36,578 nucleotides of DNA from an uncultured Verrucomicrobia subdivision 3 bacterium (GTDB lineage Bacteria; Verrucomicrobiota; Verrucomicrobiia; Limisphaerales; UBA11358), in the NCBI GenBank assembly GCA_903917705.1, contig CAIXBQ010000031.1, positions 1-36,578 of the forward strand, read 5' to 3'. The translations under genes and the position numbers were made by a program. The notes under the pieces are model-generated. The model ran no database searches and was not told where the DNA came from. It saw only the letters and a list, made by a program, of their open reading frames with translations. Below, piece by piece: positions 11,441 through 33,833 of this stretch (position 1 is the first letter of the stretch; each line of letters begins with the position of its first letter).

Positions 11441-12784
11441 TCAACGCCGGAACATACCCGGCATCGCGCCGCCCATTTTGCCCATCATTTTGGACATCTT
11501 GCCCATCTTTTTCATCATCGTCTGCATCTGGAAAAACTTGTTGAGCATGGTATTCAACTCCGTCACCGTCACACCGCTGCCCGCAGCGATGCGCCGCCGG
11601 CGGCTGGCATTAAGGAGGACCGGATTACGCCGCTCCTTCAGCGTCATGGCGCAAACCATGCCTTCCATGCGCTTGAATTCATTTTCCTGCTTGCCGATGT
11701 CCATCTGCTTGAGGGCGTCACCGCCGCCGGGGAGCATTTTCACGATGCTTTCGAGGGAGCCGAGCTTTTTCATAGCGCGCAACTGCTCCAGGAAATCCTC
11801 CAGCGAAAACTCGCCCTTGCGCATTTTTTCCTCCATGCGCCTGGCCTCGTCCTCGCTGACGGCTTCGGCCGCTTTTTCGACGAGGCTGACGACGTCGCCC
11901 ATGCCGAGAATCCGCGACGCCATGCGTTCGGGATGGAACGGCTCGAACTCGTCCAGCTTCTCGCCAACGCCGGCAAATTTGACCGGCTTGCCGGTGACCG
12001 ACTTCAGGCTCAACGCCGCGCCGCCGCGCGCATCGCCATCGAGTTTCGTGAGAATGGAACCGGTGATGTTCAGCGCCTGATCGAAATGCGTCGCGACGTT
12101 CACCGCCTCCTGACCGGTCGCGGCATCCAGCACGAGCAAAATCTCCTGCGGCTTGACCAAGTCACGCAAGCGCACCAGTTCCTGCACCAGCGGCTCGTCG
12201 ATTTGCAACCGGCCGGCGGTGTCGAAAATCAAAATATTCCGCCCATTTATCCGCGCAAAATCCAAAGCCTCGCGGGCGATTTTCAAGACATCCGTCTCGC
12301 CCCGCTTCACGAACACCGGAATATCAATCTGCCCCCCGAGGGTCTCCAACTGGTCCATCGCCGCCGGGCGATAAACATCCGCCGCGACGAGCAGCGGCGC
12401 GCGGCCCTGTTTTTTCAACAGCCGCGCGAGCTTGCCGCTCGAGGTGGTTTTGCCGGAGCCATGCAGACCCACCATCAAAATGGCGCTGGGATTACCATCG
12501 AGTTTCAGCGCGGCGTTTTGCGAGCCAAGCAAATCAACCAGCTCGTCGTGGATGATTTTTACGATCTGCTGGCCGGGCTGGACGCTGGCAACGACCTCCG
12601 CGCCGAGCGATTTCAACTTGACCCGCTCGATGAAATCACGGGCGACCTTGAAATTCACATCCGCCTCCAGCAACGCCAGCCGCACCTCGCGAAGCGCGTC
12701 GGCGGCGTTGCCCTCGGAAATTTTCCCGAGGCCGCGCAAATTACGAAAGGCGTTCTGGAGCTTGGTGCTTAACGAATCGAACAT
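11441..12784 (-). CDS. ffh: Signal recognition particle protein Ffh
   Basis: 447 residues, normal for bacterial Ffh (SRP54). This GTPase binds 4.5S RNA and signal sequences on ribosomes and hands them to FtsY at the membrane. It has an N domain (residues 1-95), then the G domain with P-loop GLHGSGKTT (about 106-114), ADVYRPAAMDQL, DTAGRL, TKLDGDARGG and GVGEKLDEFEPF. The methionine-rich M domain carries the RNA-binding RRRRIAAGSGVTVTELN and a tail with many Met residues (MMKKMGKMSKMMGKMGG). It is a single gene. The region before its start contains a heptamer repeat. Confidence 0.97.
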   Translation of the reverse strand: MFDSLSTKLQNAFRNLRGLGKISEGNAADALREVRLALLEADVNFKVARDFIERVKLKSLGAEVVASVQPGQQIVKIIHDELVDLLGSQNAALKLDGNPSAILMVGLHGSGKTTSSGKLARLLKKQGRAPLLVAADVYRPAAMDQLETLGGQIDIPVFVKRGETDVLKIAREALDFARINGRNILIFDTAGRLQIDEPLVQELVRLRDLVKPQEILLVLDAATGQEAVNVATHFDQALNITGSILTKLDGDARGGAALSLKSVTGKPVKFAGVGEKLDEFEPFHPERMASRILGMGDVVSLVEKAAEAVSEDEARRMEEKMRKGEFSLEDFLEQLRAMKKLGSLESIVKMLPGGGDALKQMDIGKQENEFKRMEGMVCAMTLKERRNPVLLNASRRRRIAAGSGVTVTELNTMLNKFFQMQTMMKKMGKMSKMMGKMGGAMPGMFRR

Positions 12785-20916: not shown

Positions 20917-20945
20917 GATAAATTTCTCCAGTTTTCAGTTCTTAA

Positions 20946-20980
20946 TGAACGAAAGGGACAAATATATTATGAATCGTTCA
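20946..20980. promoter_or_regulatory. 35-bp dyad at the recombinase start, possible att or operator site
   Basis: TGAACGA (20946-20952) and TCGTTCA (20974-20980) form a perfect 7-bp inverted repeat around an AT-rich centre. The size and imperfect symmetry suit a serine-integrase attachment site or an operator. It lies in the spacer between rplU and the recombinase and covers both the recombinase start and the candidate rplU -10. Confidence 0.4.
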
Positions 20981-22573
20981 ATAGATTGCAACCAAAAAGA
21001 TGCGAATGTTTACAGCTATGCTCGTTGGTCGAGTGATGGGCAGGGAGATGGGGATTCCAGTCGGCGTCAGGATGATCGTGCGAAGCAATGGTGCGCCAGC
21101 CGTGGCCTCAAGCTTACGGGTGGCGAACAAGATGCCGGGGTGAGCGCGTGGAAGGGCAAAAACCGACTTGAAGGCAGCGGTCTGTCACGCCTACTCAAAA
21201 TTGTGAAACCCGGCGACTACCTGCTGGTCGAAGACAATGATCGGCTTTCCCGGCAAGACTGGCTAACCGCCATGAACTTCCTCGCCGAGATTGTGGCCAA
21301 GGGCGTGACGGTGGTCACGCTGGACAACGGAAATCAGATTGACGCCGAGCGCTTCCGGCGCGATCCCGGCTGTTTCTTGCCAGCCATTATGCGGGCGCAC
21401 CTTGGGAACGACGAAAATGAAAAAAAGTCCGAGCGTATCAAAGCCTCGTGGCAGGCTCGCAAAGCCAAAATAGCCAACGGGCAGGCAGCCAACTTTAATT
21501 TGCCCTGCTGGCTGCGCTGGGACAAGGAGTCCGACCGCCCAGTTCTCGTCGAAAATAACGCGCATGTCATCCGCCAAATGTTCCAGTGGGCGCTGGATGG
21601 ACTTGGCTGCCAAACCATCGCCCGAAGGCTACACCGGGAGGGCTGCAATCTCGTGGTCAAAGGCAAACGTCGTGTTCGCACCTTGACCATCAGCGGCCCC
21701 TTCGTCTGGCGCACCCTCCGTAACAAGCTCACGATTGGCCACGGTATTTATGTGCAGCCGTCGCCGCCCGGAGTTTATCCGGCCGTTGTAGACGAAAAGA
21801 CGTTCTACGCCGTCCAACAGCGGCTCGAAGCCAACAAACATCAGACCGCGCCGAGGGCGACGAGCACGTCGAGTTTGTTTACAGGAATCGCCTTTTGTAG
21901 CAAGTGCGGCGGAACACTTTGCCGGTTTACTCAGAGCCGGAAAACCAAGAGTTACCAGTATTTAGTGTGCTCAGAGACAGTTCACAAGCATGGGGAATGT
22001 GGCATGACCAGCATCCGATATGACGCAATCGAAATGTCGTTTTTACACCTGTTGAACCAAACTGATTTCGTGCGCAAGATGCTGAACGAACAGCAGCCCG
22101 CCGCACCAATGTTGATTGACAGCTTGGCTGGTCAACTAGCCGAAGCCGAACGTCAGGTCGGGAAACTGATGTCGTTGATCAAATCCGATCCGAACCCCAG
22201 CCCGGTCGTCTATCAGTCGATTAAAACGGAGGAAGCCAAGGCTGCGGAACTGCGTCAGAAAATCGAGGCGGAACAGGGGCGGCTTGCAGCGGAAGTGCCC
22301 GCAATGGCGCTGGGAAATTACGAGGAATTTTGCCAGCACTTTTGTGGTCAAATGGAACGGGCCGAATACCGGCGAGCAGTCAAGGCCATGCTGCCCAGTT
22401 TTGTATCACGGATTGTGGTCAATCTTGGTGAGAATCGATATTCAGTTTGGCTCAAAGGTGTTGCCCAACCGATTGATGTCTACATCTCAAAGCATCGTGA
22501 TTGGATTTTTAGCCCTGCTCCGTCGTGGGTTCTGGGTCGTCCGATTGCAGAAGGAGCCAACATCATCCGTTAA
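20969..22573 (+). CDS. Large serine recombinase
   Basis: 534 residues from the ATG at 20969, which has AAAGGGA about 12 bases upstream; an ATG at 20945 lacks such a site. The N-terminal resolvase domain has YSYARWSSDGQ with the nucleophile serine (about residue 21), RRQ, and EDNDRLSRQDW. A central recombinase domain (about 185-300) is followed by a zinc ribbon (CSKCGG, then paired cysteines at VCSE and ECGM) and a coiled coil (about 370-440). Such enzymes integrate and excise phages and mobile islands. It points away from rplU and stands at the left edge of the accessory region. The insert boundaries are not proven. Confidence 0.9.
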   Translation: MNRSIDCNQKDANVYSYARWSSDGQGDGDSSRRQDDRAKQWCASRGLKLTGGEQDAGVSAWKGKNRLEGSGLSRLLKIVKPGDYLLVEDNDRLSRQDWLTAMNFLAEIVAKGVTVVTLDNGNQIDAERFRRDPGCFLPAIMRAHLGNDENEKKSERIKASWQARKAKIANGQAANFNLPCWLRWDKESDRPVLVENNAHVIRQMFQWALDGLGCQTIARRLHREGCNLVVKGKRRVRTLTISGPFVWRTLRNKLTIGHGIYVQPSPPGVYPAVVDEKTFYAVQQRLEANKHQTAPRATSTSSLFTGIAFCSKCGGTLCRFTQSRKTKSYQYLVCSETVHKHGECGMTSIRYDAIEMSFLHLLNQTDFVRKMLNEQQPAAPMLIDSLAGQLAEAERQVGKLMSLIKSDPNPSPVVYQSIKTEEAKAAELRQKIEAEQGRLAAEVPAMALGNYEEFCQHFCGQMERAEYRRAVKAMLPSFVSRIVVNLGENRYSVWLKGVAQPIDVYISKHRDWIFSPAPSWVLGRPIAEGANIIR

Positions 22574-22743
22574 CTGCCACCAGCACTAGCCACCGGGCGA
22601 TCGGCTTCCAGTTGGAGCACCACGTCGCAGACGCGGGCAGCGGTGACCGGCTTCACCATCGCCAAGCTGCCATGCCGCGCACCCACCGGCACCACCGGCA
22701 CTAGCAGTTCGGCACCGGCGGCGTAAGCGCGGCGCGGACTGGT
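22570..22743 (-). pseudogene. Short minus-strand coding remnant
   Basis: A 57-codon open frame reads through AELLVPVVPVGARHGSLAMV and KPVTAARVCDVVLQLEADRP, protein-like in composition and codon use. It is closed upstream by a TAG and ends overlapping the recombinase stop. ATG at 22659 would give only 29 residues. I do not recognise the family. It is best read as the 3' scrap of a lost gene. Confidence 0.35.
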
Positions 22744-23309
22744 CTACCACACCAGACCCAAGCGGGTTTCGCGATTTCCGTTTTAAGGCGTTCTGTTGGG
22801 CACCCTGCTCAAGGGGCGATGGTCAATTCCGACCTGTGTTTACTAGTGGTTTGTGTTGTTAGCTGATTTTAGCACGATGGTTACTCCAAAAATAAAAAAT
22901 CGGCCGGTAAATCGCGTTTTAGAGCGTCGGCGCATTATCGCCAATGCTGGCGCGGGCTTGGTGCGGGTCAATCGGGCGCAGGGCGCAAGCGCGGGCGGCG
23001 CGGGCGGCAACCCGACAGGTGACCGTCCCCGGCGTAAGATTCCCGCACTTTTTTAACGGATCATCTGAACTTTTTGGTTCTACCGCGCCCCCGAGGCACT
23101 ACCGGCGGCGGAGGGCTGATCACGCTTTCAGAGCCGTGGTGGCCCCCAGTCAGCCAAAATCTTCCATTGAAAAATAAATGGCTTTTTTTGAAGATATTTT
23201 GTCGCGCTCGTCGATGGATCACGTTCTTTACCCAGACCTTGACCTTGTTTGAAAGCAGACTCGGGCTTTGATATGCTGCTGAGCCTTAAGCCGCAAACTG
23301 TTTACAGAG
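22574..23309. other. 736-bp stretch without a confident gene
   Basis: Between the recombinase and the rep-like gene I see a short minus-strand coding scrap at the left end, a weak 59-codon plus-strand frame (22877-23056), and a more AT-rich stretch (about 23150-23300). The last probably holds the promoter of the rep-like gene, with TTGTTT and TTGATA 17 bp apart shortly before 23280. No clear terminator, tRNA or long repeat was seen. Confidence 0.6.
22877..23056 (+). CDS. Doubtful small ORF, basic
   Basis: 59 residues, MVTPKIKNRPVNRVLERRRI and onward, then a Gly/Ala-rich stretch and a basic end (DRPRRKIPALF). The start of the frame looks protein-like and basic, the second half less so. No ribosome-binding site is evident. 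It could be a small DNA-binding accessory of the recombinase or chance. Confidence 0.25.
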   Translation: MVTPKIKNRPVNRVLERRRIIANAGAGLVRVNRAQGASAGGAGGNPTGDRPRRKIPALF

Positions 23310-23399
23310 ATGGAGCAGCAGGATGGCTATCAGTATTACCACCCGTGCGCCGGGCCGGAGACGGTGTTCCGCAAGGATTTCCGTTCTACGGTAGCATGA
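23310..23399 (+). CDS. 29-residue ORF coupled to the rep-like gene
   Basis: MEQQDGYQYYHPCAGPETVF and nine more residues. Its TGA overlaps the rep-like ATG in an ATGA, a classic arrangement for translational coupling. Many plasmid rep genes have such a leader peptide; that role here is inferred. No similarity recognised. Confidence 0.4.
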   Translation: MEQQDGYQYYHPCAGPETVFRKDFRSTVA

Positions 23400-24655
23400 C
23401 CGACAAGCATGTTCCGCATTCTTTTAATACCGCGATCGCCAGAGCTTACACGGTAAACGCCGCGATCCTCTTCCATGGCATCCTCCTCTGGAGCCGATTC
23501 ACCCCTGATCACTTCGTCCGTGCGACGTTGGCGGAGCTGAAAGCGCGGCACCCCTATCTTAGCCCTAAAAAGATCAGGAATGCCCTTCGACGCCTGACAC
23601 ACCCGCGCAAGCGCAACCCGGTGCTCCTTCACCGGAACGCCGACGACGGGAGCTACAGCTACTCCCCCTGCTGTGATCCAGAAAAGACGCCCGACCTGCA
23701 CAAGTTCGACACCAAGCTGGCCTGCGAGGTCGGCGTGGTCGCCGCCATCATCTATCAGAACATCAGTTTCTGGATCAAGCGAAACTGGGAGCAGACGCGG
23801 GAGGAGGTTGAAAGGAAGATCGACCCGAAGGTGCTGAACCTCGACGCCGTTTCCATTGACCGGTATACCTATGCCGAGTCCCGGAAGGCGGCGATCCATC
23901 ACGGGCGGGTGGACAAGTGGGCCGAGGATCATCCGTACCTTGCGCTGCGCACGGTTCAACGCGGGTTTGAGACACTCAAGAACGCTGGCCTGCTCAAGGT
24001 CAGGTACGTGAAGCGCAAGACTCCGGTCTGGAGTTTGCCTGAAGAAACGCTTTCAGAATACCTGCATGTACAGCACAATAACCTGCGTAAGGATATGGGC
24101 TTACAACTTGTTGATGGGTGCGAAAACGAAGAATTCGCCGCCAAAATCACAAAGTCAGCGCCAAAATCACAAAGTGACCGCCAAAAGGGCAATGCCAGCG
24201 CCAAAAGGGCAGGCAAACCAGAGTCAGTACGCGAAGAGTCAACGACTTACGCCGGGACTGTAGAAGCTAATAGTGATGAAGCTCAGTCGCTTCGCTCCCT
24301 TGATGAAGCAGAATTAAAAACTGCAACGTGTTCCTCCTTCGTCGGAACGACGTCGAGAGCGAGTGCTTCGCCCTCTCGGATTGAAATGACTCTGAAGGAA
24401 GTCCGGGAACAGCGGAGCAAGTTCAAGCCGGAAGTTCAGGAAGAAATCCGGCGGGCCGGTAAACCCAGCTTGCCAAAACCGAAAGAGCGTCCGGTGGACG
24501 CGTGGGGCAGGCCGCTCAAGCGGCACTACCAGTTTCATCGCAAGCCTGATGACCCGGAATTCTACGAGTACATGGAAGACCTGTCCCCGGCAGACCGCCG
24601 AGCGCACATCAACAAGCACATCGAGGAGTGGAAAGCCGCAGAGGCGGCGCGGTAG
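23396..24655 (+). CDS. Replication-initiator-like protein with duplicated winged-helix segments
   Basis: 419 residues. The ATG at 23396 is chosen because the conserved-looking part begins just after it; the frame extends further upstream without support. Residues 8-65 (HSFNTAIARAYTVNAAILFHGILLWSR, then HPYLSPKKIRNALRRL) and 102-200 (HKFDTKLACEVGVVAAIIYQNISFWIK, then HPYLALRTVQRGFETLKNAGLLKV) are two versions of one pattern. This pattern is found at the N-terminus of phage and plasmid replication organisers of the DnaD-like kind. The middle is low-complexity and encoded over four 20-bp DNA repeats. The C-terminus is charged (PVDAWGRPLKRHYQFHRKPDDPEFYEYMEDLSPADRRAH). It probably binds an origin within its own gene. 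No helicase gene is nearby. Function is inferred from pattern, not a database hit. Confidence 0.65.
   Translation: MTDKHVPHSFNTAIARAYTVNAAILFHGILLWSRFTPDHFVRATLAELKARHPYLSPKKIRNALRRLTHPRKRNPVLLHRNADDGSYSYSPCCDPEKTPDLHKFDTKLACEVGVVAAIIYQNISFWIKRNWEQTREEVERKIDPKVLNLDAVSIDRYTYAESRKAAIHHGRVDKWAEDHPYLALRTVQRGFETLKNAGLLKVRYVKRKTPVWSLPEETLSEYLHVQHNNLRKDMGLQLVDGCENEEFAAKITKSAPKSQSDRQKGNASAKRAGKPESVREESTTYAGTVEANSDEAQSLRSLDEAELKTATCSSFVGTTSRASASPSRIEMTLKEVREQRSKFKPEVQEEIRRAGKPSLPKPKERPVDAWGRPLKRHYQFHRKPDDPEFYEYMEDLSPADRRAHINKHIEEWKAAEAAR
24141..24220. repeat. Four 20-bp iteron-like direct repeats inside the rep-like gene
   Basis: Four head-to-tail units, each exactly 20 bp, start with CCAAAA: CCAAAATCACAAAGTCAGCG, CCAAAATCACAAAGTGACCG, CCAAAAGGGCAATGCCAGCG, CCAAAAGGGCAGGCAAACCA. 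A 20-bp period is not a multiple of three, so each unit is read in a different frame. This means the repeat is conserved as DNA rather than as protein. Such iterons are binding sites for the Rep protein in replication origins. Origin function is inferred. Confidence 0.75.
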
Positions 24656-24673
24656 TTAGTGCATGTTACTGAC

Positions 24674-25663
24674 TCACGAGCAGCACCGGGATATGGCCCG
24701 GCGGGCCAGTCGGCATCGGCTGCTCGGCAAGAGCGCCGGAGGCGCAGTCAGCCCCGCTCCAGCGCCCCTGCGCGGCCTGCCACGAGGTCGGGAGCCGGGT
24801 CTCGGCGGCAGACAGCCGTTGCGCCGGGCGACCTCGGCCTTGGCGGCGCTGGGCCGCTCCCGAACGCCGCGCTTTAGGCTGCCCAGCAGAACCGCCTCCG
24901 GGTTTTTGACCCGGACCACGTCGATGGAATGAAACATACCAACAACCCGATCGTCGCCCCCCGGCGCGATTACCAACACCTTGCCACGGCGAACAACGTA
25001 GGCTGGCAGAACCTTGCCGGATGGAACCCGCACCAGTGACCGGCGGCGGATGCGTTCACCATGGAGGATGCCGGTCCACTTCCGCTTCCTCGGGCGCGGG
25101 CGCATGGCGATGAGGCTTGCCGCCGCGCTGACCTGCTCCGCCGTCGGGCCAGCGCTTTGGGTTTTACCGTCATTATCCGCCGGTGAGGCGGGGGCGGGGA
25201 TTGCACGATGCAGCTTATGATCAGCTGCATAGCGCAAACTGCCACCCACCTGTGGCAGTGGCGCGGTAACCGCACTGACGGCCCGCGTGAAGCACACATT
25301 GACGACAGATGCTCGCCGCCGCCGAATCCGTGGCCGCCGCCATGCGGGGTCAGGTTTCGTGGCGCTGATCCGGTTCCTCCCGATCGTGAACGCCAGCCCC
25401 AGCCTCCGCAGGTGGCCCAGCCTCATTAACAGCTCCAGCGCGAACACGCGCCGACCAGTTCTGCTTCCCTGCGGATGTTCGGCGACGATGGAATTGATGA
25501 GTGACCAGACCGGGCACTCTTCAGCGTCCCGCAGGCGCTCCAGCAGCTGCTCGTCGAGGTAGTGGAGCCGGGGCGCAGCTGGTGCTGGAGGCAGGGGCGG
25601 CGGTGTCGCGGAGGCGCGGCGGATGGCGTAGGCGGCTTCAGGTTCGACCAGATCATATTGCAT
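24674..25663 (-). CDS. Unrecognised protein with N-terminal winged-helix-like part and C-terminal AT-hook
   Basis: 329 residues from the ATG at 25663. The first 100 residues ([20 protein letters not shown], then [32 protein letters not shown]) look like a winged helix. After a low-complexity linker comes [22 protein letters not shown], a small beta-rich part, and [20 protein letters not shown] leading to [10 protein letters not shown] (about 291-300), an AT-hook with the RGRP core that binds the minor groove of AT-rich DNA. The last 29 residues look like run-on, so the original 3' end may be lost. I associate this protein type with mobile regions of Verrucomicrobiota, from memory only. It is divergent from the HsdM fusion with a 69-bp spacer. 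Confidence 0.65.
25208..25259. repeat. Two adjacent perfect hairpins inside the AT-hook gene
   Basis: ATGCAGCT-TATGATC-AGCTGCAT (25208-25230) and ACTGCCAC-CCACCT-GTGGCAGT (25238-25259) are two perfect 8-bp inverted repeats seven bases apart. They lie in the linker region of the AT-hook gene. They could be protein-binding sites of the mobile element or chance. Confidence 0.5.
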
Positions 25664-25732
25664 ACCCTAAATACCCGGCTTCGGCTTTTGCTTTGCCTCG
25701 CTGATCGGTTGGCCTACGATGCTGGCCCAGCG

Positions 25733-27469
25733 ATGCAAAAACTGACCCTGTCCCAGCTTTCCAGCCTCTTATTCCGGGCGTGTGATGATCTTCGGGGCAA
25801 CATGGATGCCTCGGAATACAAGGAATACATCTTTGGCATGCTGTTCCTGAAGCGGATGAGCGACCTGTTCGATCAGGAGCGCGATCAGCTCGCAAAGAGC
25901 CTCACGGCGAAGGGCATGTCCGCCGCCAAGATCGAGACGCAGCTCCTCAACCCCGACCAGTATACGTTTTTCGTCCCGTCGGAGGCGCGCTGGAACTACA
26001 CCGACGCTGACGGCAAGAAGAAGGGCATCGCCCACATCAAGACCAACGTCGGCTCGACTCTGAACAAGGCGCTCGAAGCCCTTGAAGACGCCAACGTGGA
26101 CGCGTTGCAGGACGTGCTCAAGCACATCAACTTCAACCGCAAGATCGGCCAGCGCACGCTCGATGACGACACCCTGTCCAACTTCGTCCAGAACTTCGAG
26201 AAAATCCCCCTGCGCGATGAGAACTTCGAGTTCCCCGACCTGCTGGGTGCGGCCTACGAATACCTGATCAAGTTCTTCGCCGATTCTGCCGGGAAGAAGG
26301 CCGGGGAGTTCTACACCCCCGCCGACGTGGTGCGGACGCTGGTCGAAATCGTCGAGCCGCAGCCCGGCATGAGCGTGTATGACCCCACCTGCGGCTCCGG
26401 CGGCATGTTGATCCAGACGCGGGACTACGTCCGCGAATGTGGTGGCGATCCCCGTGACCTGTCGCTGTTCGGTCAGGAATCCATCGGCACGACATGGTCG
26501 ATCTGCAAGATGAACATGCTGCTCCATGGCATACCGCACGCCGACATCCGGCAGGAGGACACGCTGCGTCATCCGCAGCACAAGGCCGACAGCGGCGAAC
26601 TGAAACGCTATGACCGCGTGCTGGCCAACCCGCCGTTCAGCCAGAATTACATTAAGAAGGATATCGAGTATCCCGGTCGCTTTGCGGTCTGGATGCCTGA
26701 GAAGGGCAAGAAAGCCGACCTCATGTTCGTCCAGCACATGATCGCCGTGCTCAAGGCCGACGGCAAAATGGCCACGGTCATGCCGCATGGTGTGCTGTTC
26801 CGGGGTGGGGAGGAAAAGGAAGCGCGCAAGCACTTCATCGAGCGCGATGGCCGGGTGCTGGTGCGCGCCCCCAAGTCAGTGGCAAAAAAACGCATCAAGG
26901 ACATCATCGAACGGAAGCGCGTCTGGATTTACAAGAATCTGGCCGAATGGCGCGACCTCAATGCCACCCGCGTGCTGCGGGAATATCGCAACGGCGAAGG
27001 TTTTCTTTACCTTGGGCGCAGCTATCGCCTGCTGCTCGTGTCCAATCAGGAAGAGCCGCTCCGACTGAAGCAAGGGCGGTTCTGCCTGCGCCGTGATCTG
27101 GTTGACCGGGGCGGAATCTCGGCGGCACAGGCGGTCTTCCGCGACTACTACATCACGCAGGGGCGGGAGCGCATCGCCAAGCGGGTGCATTATTTCGCGG
27201 CCAAGGTTGGGGTGAAGCCCGGCAAGATTGATGTTCGGGAGCTGGGTCATCGCTGGGCCTCGTGTTCGCCGAAAGGCAATTTGGCGTTCCACTGGAAGTG
27301 CTTGATGGCCCCGCCCGCGATCATCGATTACATCGTTGTCCATGAGCTGTGCCATTTTCATCACCTTGATCACACGGCGGCGTTCTGGAACGAAGTGGAC
27401 AAGGTCATGGCCAATTACCGCGAGCGGAAAGATTGGCTTAAGCGAAACGGTGCGGCGCTGGATGTGTGA
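25733..27469 (+). CDS. Chimera: truncated HsdM methyltransferase fused to YgjP/DUF45 metallopeptidase domain
   Basis: 578 residues from the ATG at 25733. Residues 1-370 are the N-terminal and catalytic part of HsdM, the type I restriction methylase that makes N6-methyladenine: helical domain, then [10 protein letters not shown] (217-226) for SAM binding and the catalytic NPPF (299-302). The frame then leaves HsdM in [15 protein letters not shown] and continues as [20 protein letters not shown], the start of a YgjP/DUF45 (WLM-like) metal-dependent protease. Its zinc site HELCH (537-541) and third ligand His547 are intact. About 130 HsdM residues, HsdS and HsdR are missing. In many genomes a YgjP gene lies beside hsdR, so an internal deletion of a whole type I system is the likely origin. 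Without HsdS, site-specific methylation is doubtful. The protease half may still work. Confidence 0.85.
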
Positions 27470-27568
27470 CGAAAGGGTCTGGCGGAAGTTTTGCGCCGCT
27501 TTGCGCAATCAGCGGCGAGTGACAGGCCCACGGCGCTGACGCTATGCTCCAGCCATGCCACCGACCAA

Positions 27569-27690
27569 GAGCTACCAGAATAACTTGCCTCGCGGCCCGG
27601 CAGTTGGATCGCCACTTCATCGGCTTCGAGCGCGACGAGGACTTTGCCCGGAAATGCCGCCAGCGGCTTGCGACAGCACCCGCTCAATGA
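27569..27690 (+). pseudogene. 3' remnant of a DNA methyltransferase gene
   Basis: The frame ending at the TGA at 27688-27690 reads ITCLAARQLDRHFIGFERDE, then DFARKCRQRLATAPAQ. This is the C-terminus of N6/N4 DNA methyltransferases of the PF01555 type (TxLAAxxLGRxFIGxExD). No catalytic part precedes it; a frame from 27544 gives only 48 codons. It overlaps the 3' end of the receiver-domain gene on the other strand. Confidence 0.6.
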
Positions 27691-28090
27691 TCCTTAGCCT
27701 CGGCTGCGTGACCATTTTCTGAATACAGGCGCTGGCACCCAACCGCCGCGCCCGCTGCCGGATCGCCGCTACTTGGCCGGAATGGATCACCACCGGTACC
27801 CCCGGATACAGTGCTTTGAATGCACGCAAAAAGGCCAATCCGTCGCCGCCGGACCTGCCGTAATCGGTGATAACCAGATCAAACGTCCGGCGTTTGGCCG
27901 CCCGGAACGCCTGCGCGTTGGATGCGGCCTCAACCACCTTCGCCCCAAAATGTAATTTGAGCAGCGCTTTGACCAGCAGGCGCACGACAGCCTCATCGTC
28001 CACCAGCAGGATGGACGGGCGCTGACGGCGCGTCACGGCTCGGTGAGGATCAAGAAGTTTACGGTCGGTGGGCATGACGCTGAAAAACAT
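27617..28090 (-). CDS. Stand-alone response-regulator receiver protein
   Basis: 157 residues from the ATG at 28090; 28075 is also possible. A complete receiver domain is present. It has the acidic pair in SILLVDDEAVVR, the phospho-acceptor aspartate in DLVITDYGRSGGDGL, the switch serine in VVIHSGQ and the lysine in ACIQKM. No output domain follows, and no histidine kinase is nearby. The last about 12 residues (SGQSPRRARSR) are read across the methyltransferase remnant on the opposite strand, so the original 3' end was probably lost or replaced. Its role could be a CheY-like or phosphorelay intermediate; not decidable here. Confidence 0.78.
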   Translation of the reverse strand: MFFSVMPTDRKLLDPHRAVTRRQRPSILLVDDEAVVRLLVKALLKLHFGAKVVEAASNAQAFRAAKRRTFDLVITDYGRSGGDGLAFLRAFKALYPGVPVVIHSGQVAAIRQRARRLGASACIQKMVTQPRLRIIERVLSQAAGGISGQSPRRARSR

Positions 28091-28425
28091 GGCACGCAAT
28101 GAGGCGGCGGGCAAGGTTCAGTGGATTCCGCCAGCGCGTGCTGGCGATGAAAGCTTGCAGGCGGCGCGCGGCGGGCGTATAACCAACCTGACCGCAGAAA
28201 ACAATGTAGAGATAATAACATCAAAATTTAGCGTAGCTTAGGCTACGGCCTTCTCGAAAAACCGCGAATTTTTCCATGCAGAAGCCGCCTGAGTACGCGC
28301 CCGATGGGGCGCGGCTTGGAGCACTTTCTGCATGGGCGCTTCGCGGTGCCTTCGAGGAGGGTGTGACGAGTTCGCGCCCTTTAGTTTTTAGGCTGTGTCC
28401 AGTGTTGCGTTAAGGAAAGGACAAC
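28091..28425. other. 335-bp spacer carrying hairpins
   Basis: This gap separates the divergent receiver gene and the next rightward gene. The left half shows no feature beyond room for the receiver promoter. The right half holds a small hairpin, CGTAGC-TTAG-GCTACG (28232-28247), directly followed by the compound hairpin at 28249-28360. The ribosome-binding site AAGGAAAGG (28412-28420) serves the next gene. Confidence 0.7.
28249..28360. ncRNA. 112-nt compound hairpin, possible structured RNA or cruciform site
   Basis: Four nested stems stack into one long arm. The outer is CCTTCTCGAA with TTCGAGGAGG (10 bp, one G-U). Next come ACCGCGAA with TTCGCGGT (8 bp) and CCATGCAGAA with TTCTGCATGG (10 bp). 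The innermost is CGCGCCC with GGGCGCG (7 bp) closing a GATG loop. Short internal loops separate them (for example TTTTT opposite GCGC). No T run follows on the plus strand. Candidates are a small RNA, a leader element of the gene at 28426, or a DNA cruciform used by a recombination or replication protein. Strand is not determined. Confidence 0.55.
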
Positions 28426-29049
28426 ATGCCGTTTGACCCGCAAAATCCTATCGAATGGATCAATGAAATCACACAGAACGAACCACAATTCATCCGCTGT
28501 TTGTGCAAGTCTTTATACTGGGAAAGCCATCTCGTGCGGTTGCCTGCACGAGCTTTGCTGTGCAAGTGGGGAATGACCAGGCAAGGTCGGGTTGGTGTCA
28601 TTGATGAAAACGACCCGGTTGTCACACAGGTCAATATGCCTCCGCCAGAGCGGATGCTACCCGCTGGTGACGCTCAGTATGACGCACTTGTCCGGCAGGA
28701 AGACCCGGAAGCGCAACAGCCTTCTGCCTTTGGGTTTGCCGCTTACAAACACGCCGGTGGCCATGTGCCACAACCTGTAGGACACGCCTGCGCGTGGCGG
28801 ATATTGCCGATATATGCAACGCTGACTGGATTTGTTGTTGGCAACCGAGACGCAGCCGCGACTGCGGCAAGGCACTTTACGCAGTCAGCAGGCTGGGTGG
28901 CCGTTCATCCGACGGTGTTCCACCTGATGGATCAACACGCTTGCATCGAGAACACCCTACGGGCGCGGGCCTTTACAGCGTTCGGTTATGACCCCACTGG
29001 TTGCTTTGCGCCTCAAGCAGAACACGACAACTGTGGATTCATGATCTGA
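28426..29049 (+). CDS. Unrecognised protein, 207 residues
   Basis: ATG at 28426 has one of the best ribosome-binding sites of the window (AAGGAAAGG, five bases away). The protein has no signal peptide or membrane helix. It starts MPFDPQNPIEWINEITQNEP, has a middle His/Pro-rich part (HAGGHVPQPVGHACAWRILP) and ends PTGCFAPQAEHDNCGFMI, with seven cysteines in all. I do not recognise a family. It is the first of a rightward series (28426, 29086, 30698, 31507) and lies 65 bp after the compound hairpin. Confidence 0.65.
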   Translation: MPFDPQNPIEWINEITQNEPQFIRCLCKSLYWESHLVRLPARALLCKWGMTRQGRVGVIDENDPVVTQVNMPPPERMLPAGDAQYDALVRQEDPEAQQPSAFGFAAYKHAGGHVPQPVGHACAWRILPIYATLTGFVVGNRDAAATAARHFTQSAGWVAVHPTVFHLMDQHACIENTLRARAFTAFGYDPTGCFAPQAEHDNCGFMI

Positions 29050-29085
29050 CGATTGATGAAACCAACACGAAATAAAGGCTGAACT

Positions 29086-30597
29086 ATGGCATCAAAACGC
29101 GACTGGGTGGGCTACGCGAACTTGGCGGCAAACGTGGTGCAGACCGCGCAGCTTGACGGCATCAACAGCAAGATGCGTCAGATGGCGGAATTGGAACTTC
29201 AAAATGAATACCGCCAACAGCACGAGGCGGCTGTGGCAAAACACGAAGACCTGCTGCGGGAGGCGGTATTCTTCTATTCCGAGCGGCTTCGTGATCTGGA
29301 GGAAACCGCCAGCCAAAATCCAGCGGCAACCCACATCCGTACCTGCTATTTTCGGCGAACGTATGAAAACATGCCGCAGTTCAAGTCGAGCGGGTTTCGG
29401 AAGTTCGAGGACAAAGAGCGGCTGGCAAATGTACAGCGGGCTTACGATCGGATGATCCGGGAGTGCGCGAGCCGTCTGAAGCCAGACGATCTCCAAAAAT
29501 GCGACCAGTGCATCGAGCACATTTTTAGCCGCGACAAACTGCTGAAACTGATCTCGGTTCAGGAACAGTTGGAGCGAGATCGCAGCTCTTTGCCGGAAAG
29601 ACAAGCCGCCAAGCAAGCGGAATTGCAGAAAGTGGATGAGCAATGGCAGCAAAATGAATTCCCATTCTGGATCGGGCTTTGCTTTGTGGTAATGGCAGTG
29701 ATCGTACTGGCGATCATACTCGTTCTTTCCGGTATCTCCTTCATCGAGTCCAGCGATAGCGAATTTGCCCACGCGGGAATTATCGTCACCGTGCTCGGTA
29801 TTTCAGTTGGGGGTATATTGGTACTGCTGGTAAAGGCCAAATACTGGAAGTCCGAGCGGGAATTTGCGCAAAAAGTTGCCGCTCTAAAGTCTGAAATACC
29901 AGCAATGAGCCAAGCCGTTGCCTGCAAGGAAGCGGAGCTTGGCCAGCCCAGTGAGTTGTCCACGAAGTTTGGGACAGCAAAGCCTGAAGATTCCAAACAG
30001 CTGCTGCTTGAGCGCGATAATCTCTTACATGAGACGCTGGGCGATTTCGTCAAGGAGTTCGTTGAACGTGGCAGCAATCATGCTGAATTCGGTTTAGCCT
30101 GCGAAGTTGCCATCCTCAACACCAGCGCCGGTGAAATGGTCCTCGAATTCTGGCCGAACGTCGCGCCGGACCACGTCGAGAATTTCAAAAATCTCGCCAA
30201 GGAGGGCTTTTATGACGGCACCTGCTTCCACCGCGTCATCAAGGGCTTCATGATACAGGGCGGCGATCCGAACACGAAGGATGATGCCAGACAGAACCAG
30301 TGGGGCACAGGCGGCCCCGGCTATCAGATCAAGGCGGAGTTCAACGACAAGGCCCACACGCGCGGCGTCCTTTCGATGGCGCGCTCGAACAATCCTGATT
30401 CGGCCGGTAGCCAGTTTTTCATCTGCCACGGCGACTCGCGCTTCCTCGACCGCCAATACACGGCGTTCGGCAAGCTGATCAAGGGCGACGACGTGCTGGA
30501 GAAAATCGCCACCACGGCGACGGAACCCCCGGACCGGCCGGTGAAGCGCGTGAATGTTGAAAGCGTCAAAATCGTGTCCGCCGACAGCGTGAAATAA
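29086..30597 (+). CDS. Membrane coiled-coil protein fused to a cyclophilin domain
   Basis: 503 residues; ATG at 29086 with AAAGG eight bases upstream. Residues 1-190 are charged and helical with coiled-coil character. Two membrane helices follow (about 193-217, FWIGLCFVVMAVIVLAIILVL, and 229-250, AGIIVTVLGISVGGILVLLV), then another helical stretch to about 330. Residues 340-500 are a complete cyclophilin-type peptidyl-prolyl isomerase: VAILNTSAGEMVLEFWP, FHRVIKGFMIQGGDP with the catalytic arginine, and SAGSQFFI. Both ends should lie on the same side of the membrane, probably the cytoplasm. Codon use turns GC-rich at about 30103, suggesting that a host-like cyclophilin gene was joined to an accessory gene. 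The domain calls are firm; one function for the whole is not. Confidence 0.8.
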   Translation: MASKRDWVGYANLAANVVQTAQLDGINSKMRQMAELELQNEYRQQHEAAVAKHEDLLREAVFFYSERLRDLEETASQNPAATHIRTCYFRRTYENMPQFKSSGFRKFEDKERLANVQRAYDRMIRECASRLKPDDLQKCDQCIEHIFSRDKLLKLISVQEQLERDRSSLPERQAAKQAELQKVDEQWQQNEFPFWIGLCFVVMAVIVLAIILVLSGISFIESSDSEFAHAGIIVTVLGISVGGILVLLVKAKYWKSEREFAQKVAALKSEIPAMSQAVACKEAELGQPSELSTKFGTAKPEDSKQLLLERDNLLHETLGDFVKEFVERGSNHAEFGLACEVAILNTSAGEMVLEFWPNVAPDHVENFKNLAKEGFYDGTCFHRVIKGFMIQGGDPNTKDDARQNQWGTGGPGYQIKAEFNDKAHTRGVLSMARSNNPDSAGSQFFICHGDSRFLDRQYTAFGKLIKGDDVLEKIATTATEPPDRPVKRVNVESVKIVSADSVK

Positions 30598-30697
30598 CCA
30601 GCCATCCTTTTAGATTGAAAGGCAAAGATTATGTTGACGGAGGAAGCCATCGTGCAAGCACGGTATCGGCTGGTGTAATGCGCGTCTGAACAATTAA

Positions 30698-31366
30698 ATG
30701 AAATCTAGCATGAAAACGCAGAAGTCCGCCGCTAAACAAGCGGTTCGCCCGCTGACCGTGACTACCATCAAGCGGGCCATCAAGGCGCTGCCGGACGCCA
30801 AGGTCGAACCGCTGCTCAACTGGCTGCGAAACCACTACGACGGCGACGTCTGGGACCGGCAGATGGCCGCCGACGTCGAGCGCCTTGGGGATGTCGGCTT
30901 CGGTGTCGCCCTCGGAGGCAAGCCGACCGGTGATCCTGATAACCCGCTCGATTTCGGCGAACTTCACGACATGGATGAGGTCATGGCTTGGCTAGCTGAG
31001 AAAATAAAGCGGGCAAAAAAGGCCGAGAAAATCAGCAAACGACTGGTCGAGTGGGCCGAAGTTGACAAGTTCAAGAAAGTTCAGTGCCAAAGCGTCGGTG
31101 CGCATGATGTGTTCCAGTTGCAGTTCTGGATCAGCAAGAACACGGAGTGCCGGTCGGTGGATGACATCAAGAAACACCTCGGCTACATCGCGCGCGGTGC
31201 GGGCTTCAAAATTCCCGACGACGAGTGCGTTGTGTCAATGGACGCCGATCGCGTCTGGGCTTGGTTTAAGCTGGAACCGCGCCCCAAGCCCGCGCCTGAA
31301 CAGACGCCCAAGTGGCGTGGGCCATCAGCCGTCGGTAAGCCTTATAGCACAACCCCACTGCCTTGA
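30698..31366 (+). CDS. Unrecognised protein, 222 residues
   Basis: ATG at 30698 (a second at 30710) without a clear ribosome-binding site. The start is basic. Residues about 20-65 (IKRAIKALPDAKVEPLLNWL, then DGDVWDRQMAADVERLG) resemble the LP..-W-DRQ-AD pattern of small antitoxin-like proteins, a weak hint only. The middle is Lys-rich (EKIKRAKKAEKISKRL), followed by a compact part (DVFQLQFWISKNTECRSVDD) and a Pro-rich end. No membrane segment. A terminator-like hairpin follows at 31424. Confidence 0.6.
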   Translation: MKSSMKTQKSAAKQAVRPLTVTTIKRAIKALPDAKVEPLLNWLRNHYDGDVWDRQMAADVERLGDVGFGVALGGKPTGDPDNPLDFGELHDMDEVMAWLAEKIKRAKKAEKISKRLVEWAEVDKFKKVQCQSVGAHDVFQLQFWISKNTECRSVDDIKKHLGYIARGAGFKIPDDECVVSMDADRVWAWFKLEPRPKPAPEQTPKWRGPSAVGKPYSTTPLP

Positions 31367-31423
31367 AACTTTGCCCTGATACCCGCGAAGAGGGCAACCG
31401 GATGGCGCGGTCAGGGAGCTGAC

Positions 31424-31451
31424 ACCCCACGGGATCGACGATGGGGTTTTT
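31424..31451 (+). terminator. Candidate terminator after the 30698 gene
   Basis: ACCCCA (31424-31429) pairs with TGGGGT (31442-31447) around a 12-base loop, and five Ts (31447-31451) follow. It lies 58 bp after the stop of the 222-residue gene and before the HEAT-repeat gene. Confidence 0.5.
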
Positions 31452-31506
31452 CGCAATCAGGCTGCGTATGTAGGTTGTGAAGATTAACGCGAGAAACCAA
31501 AATGCT

Positions 31507-33072
31507 ATGATAAACCAAATCGACAACGACCTGTTATCAGGCGACCCGAACACGATCCAGCGGCAGCTTGGCTGCCGGGCGGCGGAGTTCATGCGCACCG
31601 GCAAAGTTCTGGCTTCTGGCAAGCTTATGGAGCTATATGCACACCGCCGCCAGATCAAGCCCGGCAAGGCGGAAGCCAAACTCATTCTGGCTTCGATGTT
31701 GTGCGAAGATGAGTCGGGACTCAAATCGAGACGGAATGAACTGGGCTGGTTCTGGTTTCGGCACTACACATCCCAGCAGCTCGGTGACTTGCTGGCGGAA
31801 TTGGCGCAGTGCAAGCACGGCTCGGTCAGCGTGCCTGCGACCACTGTCCTCGCGCACGTCCCGACGAAGAAAACTTTTACCGCCCTGCTGAAGCTCGTGA
31901 CGAATGTGGATGTCGAGGTTGCCAGCGAAGCGGTCAAGGGATTGGGTCAATTCCCGGCATCCCAGTCTCTGCCGAAGCTGCGCATAATCGCAAACTACAC
32001 CGGGCTGCATGGCTACGTGCGGCGGCGGGCAGTGGCCGCGATCGGAAAATTCAGGCACCCGGTCGATTTGCCGCTGCTGCGTGGGCTGGCGGCTGATCCT
32101 TCAGCAGATGTCCGGTGGGAGGCGCTCGAAGCGCTGTCCGCATATCAATGCCCGGAGGACGCGGCGATCGTGCGGAAGCTGGCCCATGACCGGGATGAGC
32201 ATGTCCGGTACAGGGCCATCGCAGCCATCTGGCAATATGGGCAACCGGAAGACCGGTGCTGGTTGCTGGAGCTTGTGAATGATCCGGCTCATCCGCACCG
32301 TGCTGTCGCGGTGGAGTCGCTCGCCGAGTTCAAGAACCCTGCGGATTTACCGCTGTTCCGAAAGCTGACCGGCGACCAGCACGTCGTTGTCCGGTCAAGC
32401 GCAGCTAGCGCGCTCGGCAAATTCCAGCACCCGGCGGACGTGGAGCTGCTCAAGCGCAGGGTGCTGGGAACAAGATCAATGTCCGTTGACGCCCTGCTGG
32501 CTTACCCGGCCAACATGGTTGCCGGAGCCATCCGGGAACTGGCCGCCGTGAAGAGCAGCAGTGTTCAGATGAATCTCGCCTTTTGTCTGGGCGATTGGCG
32601 TCACCCGGATGCGCCGAAGATTCTGCGGCAGGTGGTGGCGCGGGCGCACGTGTACGACACCGACTTGAGGGCGGCAGCCGCCGCTGCGCTGGGCACGCAG
32701 GGGAAGGCCCAAGACCTCCCCTTGCTCAAGCGGATGAGCCACTGGGATATGGAGTCGGTACGCCGCGAGGCTGTGTGGGCGGTCGCCAAGTACCGCCGGA
32801 TCGCCGATATCAAGTTTCTACAGGATTGCCGGTTTGATCCCACGCCAGCGGTTCGGACAGTGGCGGCCATGGCAATGGCCCGGATCATGAAGCGGGGTGA
32901 TCTTGAACGGTGGCTGCACCAGAACTTCGACACCGTGAGATTTGAAACTCTGGTGGAGGTTGACTTCGCCTTGTACGCGCCGCGCTGTCTGGTCAAAACG
33001 AAGCCGCGCCTCGGAAACGAGGACGTTGGCATGGCGCTGGGCATCGTGCGCTCCCACTGCCCGGAGTGGTGA
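31507..33072 (+). CDS. HEAT-repeat (PBS-lyase-like) scaffold protein
   Basis: 521 residues from the ATG at 31507; a GTG at 31477 is also in frame. From about residue 110 to 470 it is an array of some ten 31-residue HEAT units of the PBS-lyase type, such as DLPLLRGLAADPSADVRWEALEALSAY, AAIVRKLAHDRDEHVRYRAIAAIWQY and DLPLFRKLTGDQHVVVRSSAASALGKF. The N-terminal 100 residues are a separate helical part. There is no signal peptide or membrane helix. Such solenoids bind other proteins, and the partner is not shown. It is alone between a candidate terminator and the resolvase. Confidence 0.85.
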   Translation: MINQIDNDLLSGDPNTIQRQLGCRAAEFMRTGKVLASGKLMELYAHRRQIKPGKAEAKLILASMLCEDESGLKSRRNELGWFWFRHYTSQQLGDLLAELAQCKHGSVSVPATTVLAHVPTKKTFTALLKLVTNVDVEVASEAVKGLGQFPASQSLPKLRIIANYTGLHGYVRRRAVAAIGKFRHPVDLPLLRGLAADPSADVRWEALEALSAYQCPEDAAIVRKLAHDRDEHVRYRAIAAIWQYGQPEDRCWLLELVNDPAHPHRAVAVESLAEFKNPADLPLFRKLTGDQHVVVRSSAASALGKFQHPADVELLKRRVLGTRSMSVDALLAYPANMVAGAIRELAAVKSSSVQMNLAFCLGDWRHPDAPKILRQVVARAHVYDTDLRAAAAAALGTQGKAQDLPLLKRMSHWDMESVRREAVWAVAKYRRIADIKFLQDCRFDPTPAVRTVAAMAMARIMKRGDLERWLHQNFDTVRFETLVEVDFALYAPRCLVKTKPRLGNEDVGMALGIVRSHCPEW

Positions 33073-33209
33073 AGTGTGGCTGCCTGAGGCCGAACCGGCG
33101 CGTGTTCCAGTTGTCTCGGAAAACGGTCGTTTGATTGTATGTGCAATCCCGACGGCGACACCTGCGTGTTTCCAAAGGTTTTAATTCTCATATACCCGTC
33201 TCGTTTTTC

Positions 33210-33221
33210 TTTGTATACAAA
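33210..33221. promoter_or_regulatory. Palindrome upstream of the resolvase gene
   Basis: TTTGTATACAAA is a perfect 12-bp palindrome 27 bp before the resolvase ATG. It lies within a wider GTCTC (33198-33202) and GAGAC (33244-33248) pair, the latter touching the start codon. This could be a resolvase binding subsite or operator. Confidence 0.45.
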
Positions 33222-33248
33222 TCTCATCTGTGGTGTAGTATTTGAGAC

Positions 33249-33833
33249 ATGGCTACCAAATCCACCAAACGTCTCGTCGGCTACGCTCGCGTCTCGACCG
33301 GCGAACAGGAGCTTCAACTGCAACTCGACGCCCTGCGGAAAGCCGGGTGCGCGAAGGGCGACACCTTTAACGACAAGATCAGCGGATCGAAGTCCATCCG
33401 CCCCGGTCTCGACGCTTGCCTGAAGCATCTGAAGCCCGGCGACACCCTCGTCGTCTGGCGGCTTGACCGCCTCGGGCGGTCGGTTCGCCACCTCATCGAC
33501 GTCGTCGAAGACCTCCGGCAACGGGGCGTCGGGTTCAAGTCGCTTTGCGACGGCGCTATCGACACCACGACGGCCAGCGGCGAACTGATCTTCCACATCT
33601 TCACGGCGCTGGCCCAGTTCGAGCGGCGGTTGATTCAGGAGCGCACCAAGGCTGGTCTGACGGCGGCGCGTGCCCGTGGCCGCCTCGGTGGGCGTCCGCC
33701 GATGGAAGTTAACGATCCGCGCATCCAGACCGCGAAGACGTTGCATGCCGACAAGCGTATGCCGATCGCAGACATCTGTCAGACGCTGAAGATTTCTAGG
33801 CCTACGTTGTACCGGTGGCTGACGGTGAAGTAG
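33249..33833 (+). CDS. Small serine recombinase (resolvase/invertase family)
   Basis: 194 residues, the usual length for Hin/Tn3-type resolvases. The catalytic serine is in GYARVSTGEQELQLQLDAL (about residue 16). Arginines and the core follow in VVWRLDRLGRSVRHLIDVV, then FHIFTALAQFERRLIQERT and GRLGGRPP. A C-terminal helix-turn-helix (IADICQTLKISRPTLYRWL) gives DNA binding. It could resolve or invert DNA in the island. There is no transposase beside it. A 14-bp palindrome touches its stop codon. Confidence 0.93.
   Translation: MATKSTKRLVGYARVSTGEQELQLQLDALRKAGCAKGDTFNDKISGSKSIRPGLDACLKHLKPGDTLVVWRLDRLGRSVRHLIDVVEDLRQRGVGFKSLCDGAIDTTTASGELIFHIFTALAQFERRLIQERTKAGLTAARARGRLGGRPPMEVNDPRIQTAKTLHADKRMPIADICQTLKISRPTLYRWLTVK

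Follow-up and report, generated by a model that had tools for sequence, protein, structure and literature searches.

In a stretch of 36,578 nucleotides from an uncultured Verrucomicrobia subdivision 3 bacterium (the window), the front part of a type I restriction methylase gene, hsdM, continues in frame into the back part of ygjP, the gene of a YgjP-like metallopeptidase. This fusion is probably what a single deletion, some 8 kb long and internal to a type I restriction-modification (R-M) operon, has left behind: a scar without methylase function; that is, a loss of function and not a new enzyme. In the parent operon, hsdM and hsdS would have been followed by an AbiEi-like gene, an unassigned gene, hsdR and ygjP; the break would join hsdM codon 371 to ygjP codon 26 across no more than 10 shared nucleotides, and the hsdM start would now lead into a chimera of 578 residues.

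Structure of the chimeric gene

The chimera is encoded by a single uninterrupted open reading frame on the + strand (25733-27469), with its ATG at 25733 and its stop codon at 27467-27469, and comprises residues 1-371 of HsdM followed by residues 26-232 of the YgjP-like metallopeptidase, in the numbering of an intact relative (genome G182):

25733-26845, + strand: 5' part of hsdM, residues 1-371 (PF12161, PF02384; 95% amino acid and 88% nucleotide identity to G182 hsdM)
26837-26846, + strand: junction of 10 nucleotides, ATCGAGCGCG, with the breakpoint within it (alignment to hsdM of G182 and G016 and to ygjP of G182 and G042; block identities)
26846-27469, + strand: 3' part of ygjP, residues 26-232 (PF01863; 85% amino acid and 81% nucleotide identity to G182 ygjP)

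Three Pfam domains span the 578 residues, HsdM_N at 9-155, N6_Mtase at 169-372 and YgjP-like at 369-572, in line with the earlier note's claim of an in-frame fusion that lacks any stop or frame change. The note had also stated that both halves keep their catalytic motifs, and all of these are present: HsdM_N (PF12161) and N6_Mtase (PF02384) score above cut-off, with the SAM motif and NPPF in place (DPTCGSGG from residue 217, NPPF from residue 299), and the peptidase half contains HELCH (537-541) and His547, which we take to be its third zinc ligand. The two histidines and the glutamate of the peptidase motif and the later histidine are invariant across 18 aligned YgjP rows. The ATG at 25733 corresponds to the start of G182 hsdM, and window positions 25725-26846 align without gaps to 6727-7848 of the relative's locus. 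PADLOC assigns the hsdM half to MTase_I, its best model being aligned over 2-376 of 834 positions; the peptidase half finds a single, weak match by sequence in the PDB, proabylysin (4jiu, E 0.0033).

The intact operon and the missing DNA

The intact relative is Verrucomicrobia subdivision 3 bacterium UBA6082, whose contig DIXK01000035.1 (C60 of G182) carries the locus referred to here as L035. It belongs to the same order as the window's genome, while G016 and G042 belong to the same genus. The genes of the locus are as follows:

L035 6735-9224: hsdM, 829 amino acids
L035 9217-10500: hsdS
L035 10670-11716: AbiEi-like gene
L035 11695-12540: gene of no assigned family (no Pfam match), presumptively labelled abiEii
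L035 12544-15780: hsdR
L035 15777-16475: ygjP

A comparison with intact loci of relatives, which the earlier note had proposed, exposes the lost segment: the relative has the order hsdM-hsdS-x-x-hsdR-ygjP, and the kept parts at its two ends are 95% (HsdM) and 85% (YgjP) identical to the window, with the same hsdM start and the same end genes. Absent from the window but present in DIXK01000035.1 are the last 458 residues of HsdM, then hsdS, both genes that separate it from hsdR, hsdR itself, and codons 1-25 of ygjP, of which codons 23-25 (IER) coincide with those of hsdM. At the DNA level, the window matches the locus in hsdM up to 26846 (88%) and in ygjP from 26837 (81%), and nowhere else. The DNA missing from the window, taken as the difference in offset to this relative, which is not its ancestor, amounts to 8,004 nucleotides; this is a multiple of three, and the reading frame therefore survives. 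In the intact locus PADLOC matches HsdM and HsdR, and nothing for ygjP, the AbiEi-like gene or the gene at 11695-12540.

In this family, ygjP lies downstream of hsdR in all 39 testable loci among 80 GTDB loci (L038-L117), a locus being testable where the end of hsdR and at least 650 nucleotides beyond it are present; the remaining 41 are unscored, and the 39 include the damaged locus L085 described below. The ends of the hsdR and ygjP matches lie between -3 and 57 nucleotides apart in 38 loci, and 1,952 nucleotides apart in one. A deletion from hsdM to ygjP thus needs no rearrangement, and we infer that the loss was one event.

The junction

The sequence compatible with both parents is at most 10 nucleotides long (ATCGAGCGCG, 26837-26846), relatives standing in for the undeleted ancestor of the window. 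At the join, hsdM of both G182 and G016 reads ATCGAACGCGGCTGG and G182 ygjP reads ATCGAGCGTGATGG, so that the two G182 genes are exactly identical over only 5 nucleotides, ATCGA. Either parent may have supplied the G at 26842, as ATCGAGCGCGG is found in hsdM of three other loci (L040, L049, L058). In blocks of 30 nucleotides, identity flips at 26837, with 25-29 of 30 positions identical to hsdM before it and 19-28 of 30 identical to ygjP after it. The residue that follows the IER-like triplet in HsdM (IERGW and similar) is G in all 53 loci in which the motif could be parsed (27 of the 80 are unparsed); the D at the window's join thus derives from YgjP.

The earlier note had proposed a deletion at microhomology, with 15 nucleotides (IERDG) that fit both parents. 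The deletion is upheld by the loss evident against the intact relative; the overlap, at no more than 10 nucleotides, falls short of the 15 proposed, and the D is that of YgjP where HsdM has G. Repeats of about 10 nucleotides are also unremarkable in this pair of genes, as hsdM and ygjP of G182 have 11 exact 9-mer pairs in common, and no 10-mer. With 10 or fewer shared nucleotides, slippage or end-joining would fit better than homologous recombination as the origin of the join.

The brevity of the shared stretch bears on an assembly artefact, in which contigs or reads that belong to separate parts of one intact hsd locus, or to two strains, would have been wrongly joined and the organism would have no such gene; we consider this unlikely. 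Short-read assemblers commonly use word lengths above 10 nucleotides, and the join shares at most 10. The deleted segment, moreover, is not seen elsewhere in the genome, where the HsdM match ends at residue 373 and the HsdR matches are only 30-32% identical. An artefact would nevertheless be consistent with a fragmented genome that is 66% complete, with a join known from the assembled contig alone and found in no other genome searched, and with the conservation of the 5' part of hsdM, which may make assemblies prone to break: the HsdM family occurs in records of many phyla, and the best segments of this part are 85-89% identical in records from Nitrospira, Acidobacteria and Verrucomicrobia. 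Another metagenome contig (L045) likewise loses its hsdM match near the same codon and ends as a mosaic of fragments.

Restriction genes in the rest of the genome

The window is the entire contig C31 of its genome (3.76 Mb, 167 contigs, 66% complete). Whole-genome searches find no hsdS or hsdR on this contig; HsdS occurs only on contig C144, HsdR-like matches (30-32% identical) only on C144 and on the genome's own C60, and the HSDR_N domain is found nowhere in the genome. The absence of both subunits claimed in the earlier note holds in this sense, and an intact hsdS or hsdR elsewhere in the same locus, which the note had said would speak against its reading, was looked for and is not present on C31. 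The sole HsdM match of the genome is the one that ends at residue 373, and the AbiEi-like gene has no match in a search that had no positive control.

Contig C144 (5.7 kb) encodes an HsdS and a KilA-N protein, along with an EcoR124_C-family HsdR frame that has C-terminal domains only (L186:117-3569). Its type I system is apparently of a second, unrelated family, and broken; N6_Mtase has no match on this contig, and its HsdS has no match to that of G182. Two further observations concern genes related to either half of the chimera: a second, complete YgjP-like gene on contig C47 (L187:2642-3373) adjoins genes for an MFS transporter and a CvfB-like protein, and a second N6_Mtase match (E 1.5e-5) lies within a 1,115-codon open reading frame on contig C93 (17631-18041).

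Losses in both halves of the chimera

The earlier note had described an HsdM without its C-terminus. The truncation is as claimed; its extent is greater, as the cut also removes the final third of the catalytic domain. The Pfam N6_Mtase profile (311 positions) is covered over 4-205 in the chimera and over 4-305 in the intact relative, so that the catalytic domain is incomplete and positions 206-311 are gone. The block lost just past the join is invariant in 13 of 13 HsdMs, a chosen set, at G372, L374, A376, I378-P381, L384-F385 and G387-A392. A structural model of the first 480 residues of intact HsdM places strands at 374-379, 392-398 and 407-412; this model is poor (mean pLDDT 49.8, pTM 0.42), and the argument for the loss of methylase function is based on how strongly the lost block is conserved and not on the fold of the model. 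With the end of its catalytic domain gone and no specificity subunit of its own, the chimera would be unable to methylate, and restriction would have been lost along with hsdR.

On the peptidase side, residues 1-22 of YgjP are replaced by unrelated HsdM residues, and the near-invariant R16, T18 and D20 are gone. The YgjP-like Pfam profile is aligned over 7-207 of its 207 positions in the chimera, even though these first 22 residues of the intact relative are replaced. In a model of the relative's YgjP, which is fair (pLDDT 79.4, pTM 0.67), strands are found at 2-4, 7-14 and 20-23, and the replaced residues correspond to two of them and most of the third. To judge from its sequence, peptidase activity of the chimera may be impaired or incidental.

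It is improbable that a real deletion left a working peptidase, with the promoter and start of hsdM expressing an active YgjP domain and the methylase half as a mere carrier. Such a protein would have HELCH and His547 intact, as is the case, and a preserved frame, which a third of all deletions would keep by chance; it would have to do without the replaced N-terminal residues, R16, T18 and D20 among them, and without its presumed operon partners. The ratio dN/dS of about 0.09 relative to G182 over 205 codons of ygjP points to constraint, though, should the deletion be young, mostly to constraint that predates it.

A bifunctional methylase-protease under selection, borrowing for instance the HsdS of C144, is barely credible. 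Both sets of motifs are intact in the chimera, an HsdS is in fact present in the genome, and the hsdM half is strongly constrained on the window branch (52 synonymous and 4 nonsynonymous changes; Fisher p 0.07). Against this, the catalytic domain is cut ahead of the block invariant in 13 of 13 HsdMs, the HsdS on C144 has no match to that of G182 and lies beside half an HsdR of the EcoR124_C family, and no homologue of the whole protein is found in the genomes, contigs, plasmids and phages searched. We also hold it highly improbable that the fusion is real, translated and selected as an arm derived from the methylase, which would bind DNA or subunits and tether a YgjP-like protease, for example one that still docks on type I restriction subunits and destroys them; if true, this would reveal the target of the orphan protease in these operons.

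The earlier note had left the choice between a dead scar and a new methylase-protease. The scar is far better supported, because the methylase domain is cut, hsdS is absent from the locus, 22 peptidase residues are lost and no second example is found in the genomes and records searched; the new methylase-protease is not borne out. What counts against the scar is that neither half shows decay and both catalytic motif sets are kept, which is compatible with a maintained fusion as well.

Constraint and age of the probable deletion

Changes on the window branch were counted by simple, uncorrected parsimony on three sequences for each half rather than on a tree, as codon changes at which the other two sequences agree. 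Over 368 codons of hsdM, synonymous and nonsynonymous changes number 52 and 4 for the window, 42 and 8 for G182, and 55 and 14 for G016; over 205 codons of ygjP, they number 18 and 8 for the window, 23.5 and 7.5 for G182, and 41 and 14 for G042. Compared with the other branches, that of the window shows no excess of nonsynonymous change in either half, and thus no relaxed constraint (Fisher p 0.07 for hsdM, in the direction of more constraint, and 0.61 for ygjP); the 95% bounds on the neutral share of this branch are at most about 5% for hsdM and 25% for ygjP. The join is therefore young, or an assembly join, or, least likely, has been kept, and the counts cannot separate these. The incompleteness of the methylase half, together with the lack of any further copy in the searches, favors a young deletion.

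Searches for further fusions

The earlier note had proposed a search for full-length homologues of the 578-residue protein; this was extended to relatives, the phylum, GTDB contigs, and viral, plasmid and phage sequences, and yields none. Among 195 genomes, the window's own included, 158 have a match to the whole protein, and among the matches listed only the window's own row covers both halves, so that no second fusion is seen among the matches listed for the 194 other relatives. No fusion occurs in the best 80 of 492 loci on GTDB contigs, where matches reach no further than query residue 443; those that pass residue 372 are presumably extended by chance into the remaining HsdM. None of 6 viral loci in IMG/VR spans the fusion or passes residue 383, and none of 123 phage records covers 80% of the protein. 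One of 3,410 plasmid records covers at least 80%, that of Salinibacter ruber M8 pSR56 (83% at 29% identity, in two pieces). It was rejected as a second fusion because the pieces are two genes in reverse order: in the annotation a methyltransferase gene of its own lies behind the metalloprotease gene, the order opposite to that of the fusion.

A shorter query, an 87-residue peptide that bridges the join, gives the same picture. It has matches in 95 of 387 genomes of the phylum, including the window's own, and only the window's match spans residues 1-87; the others end at or before 52 or start at or after 34, so that the join is spanned in none of the 386 other genomes. None of 45 plasmid records covers 80% of this peptide. 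A search of the order with intact HsdM at E 1e-60, in which up to three candidates were scored per genome, finds matches in 66 of 320 genomes (92 rows), and among these only two end before residue 390, the window copy (373) and a copy with two stops in genome G294 (380). In the open PMC literature, no HsdM-YgjP fusion was found; the matches to DUF45 were set aside since, in the available parts of those papers, they concern DUF450.

Other damaged loci of the operon family

Three further loci of the same operon have suffered internal losses. In L085 (641-6618) a stop is found at codon 464 of the hsdM frame, hsdR residues 1-39 are joined in frame to 1036-1076, and ygjP is complete from residue 4. 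In L037 (G042, reverse strand) hsdR lacks about 446-746, and its remaining parts lie in different frames with a stop in the first; the AbiEi-like gene, the unassigned gene and ygjP are present over their length. In L045 (11053-12604) hsdM is cut after HFIQK, and the start of an AAA ATPase, hsdR 412-590 and a weak match to 23 residues of ygjP near the contig end are found. The segments lost differ from those in the window, and none of the three has an open HsdM-YgjP frame.

The break of L045 close to hsdM codon 371 raised the question of a deletion hotspot there. The idea was discarded, since it would draw on no more than two cases, of which one lies near a contig end, and the order otherwise offers only the stop-bearing G294 copy (380). 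Type I restriction loci can go piecemeal, as these other family members show, and a single deletion scar is accordingly of little weight.

Genomic surroundings of the fusion

Two recombinase genes lie to either side of the fusion:

20945-22573, + strand: large serine recombinase, bordering the variable region that contains the fusion (PF00239, PF13408, PF07508)
33249-33833: resolvase

In all 19 loci of same-genus relatives compared, each with up to 1.5 kb on that side, blastn similarity ends by 20925, just upstream of rplU; among the translated matches listed, one reaches 20931. This end of similarity, together with the recombinase and the resolvase, places the fusion within a variable region beside rplU-obg. 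The part of this region considered here is window positions 20926-33833. No att-like pair of repeats was recognized between 20500 and 36578 among the 20 largest of 27 families of direct repeats, these 20 being imperfect. The window also encodes, at 29086-30597, a protein of 503 residues with a cyclophilin-type isomerase as its C-terminal third (PF00160, 344-495) and a long unassigned N-terminal part.

Comparison with known systems

Since ygjP lies behind hsdR in every one of the 39 testable loci, a role of the peptidase in restriction is worth testing; no explanation of such a role was found in the open PMC literature. In plasmid records (among the 60 listed of 543), the peptidase is mostly annotated as a SprT family zinc-dependent metalloprotease. 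Plasmid pSR56 (NC_014028.1, L188) has the order methyltransferase, subunit S, ATP-binding protein, subunit R and SprT metalloprotease, much like the parent operon; it differs in that its genes are intact and separate, and in that a further methyltransferase gene follows the metalloprotease. For the type I locus of the Iodobacter plasmid pl1, no peptidase gene is annotated in the stretch shown, the PLSDB gene tables being incomplete.

Published work already links a type I R-M system to a metallopeptidase in an island of E. coli E2348/69, as far as the available part of that report extends (PMC12255303). This RptR-RMS-DarTG-M48 (RRDM) island is described there as an anti-phage island, tested, with a repressor and a zinc metallopeptidase, called M48, downstream of the type I R-M genes; DarTG is embedded between hsdS and hsdR, at a spot termed a potential recombination hotspot (PMC12255303). 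In the same part of the report no gene fusion is described for RRDM, in contrast to the window (PMC12255303). The likeness is one of description and not of compared proteins: RRDM resembles the parent operon in its downstream metallopeptidase and in the defence module between hsdS and hsdR (PMC12255303).
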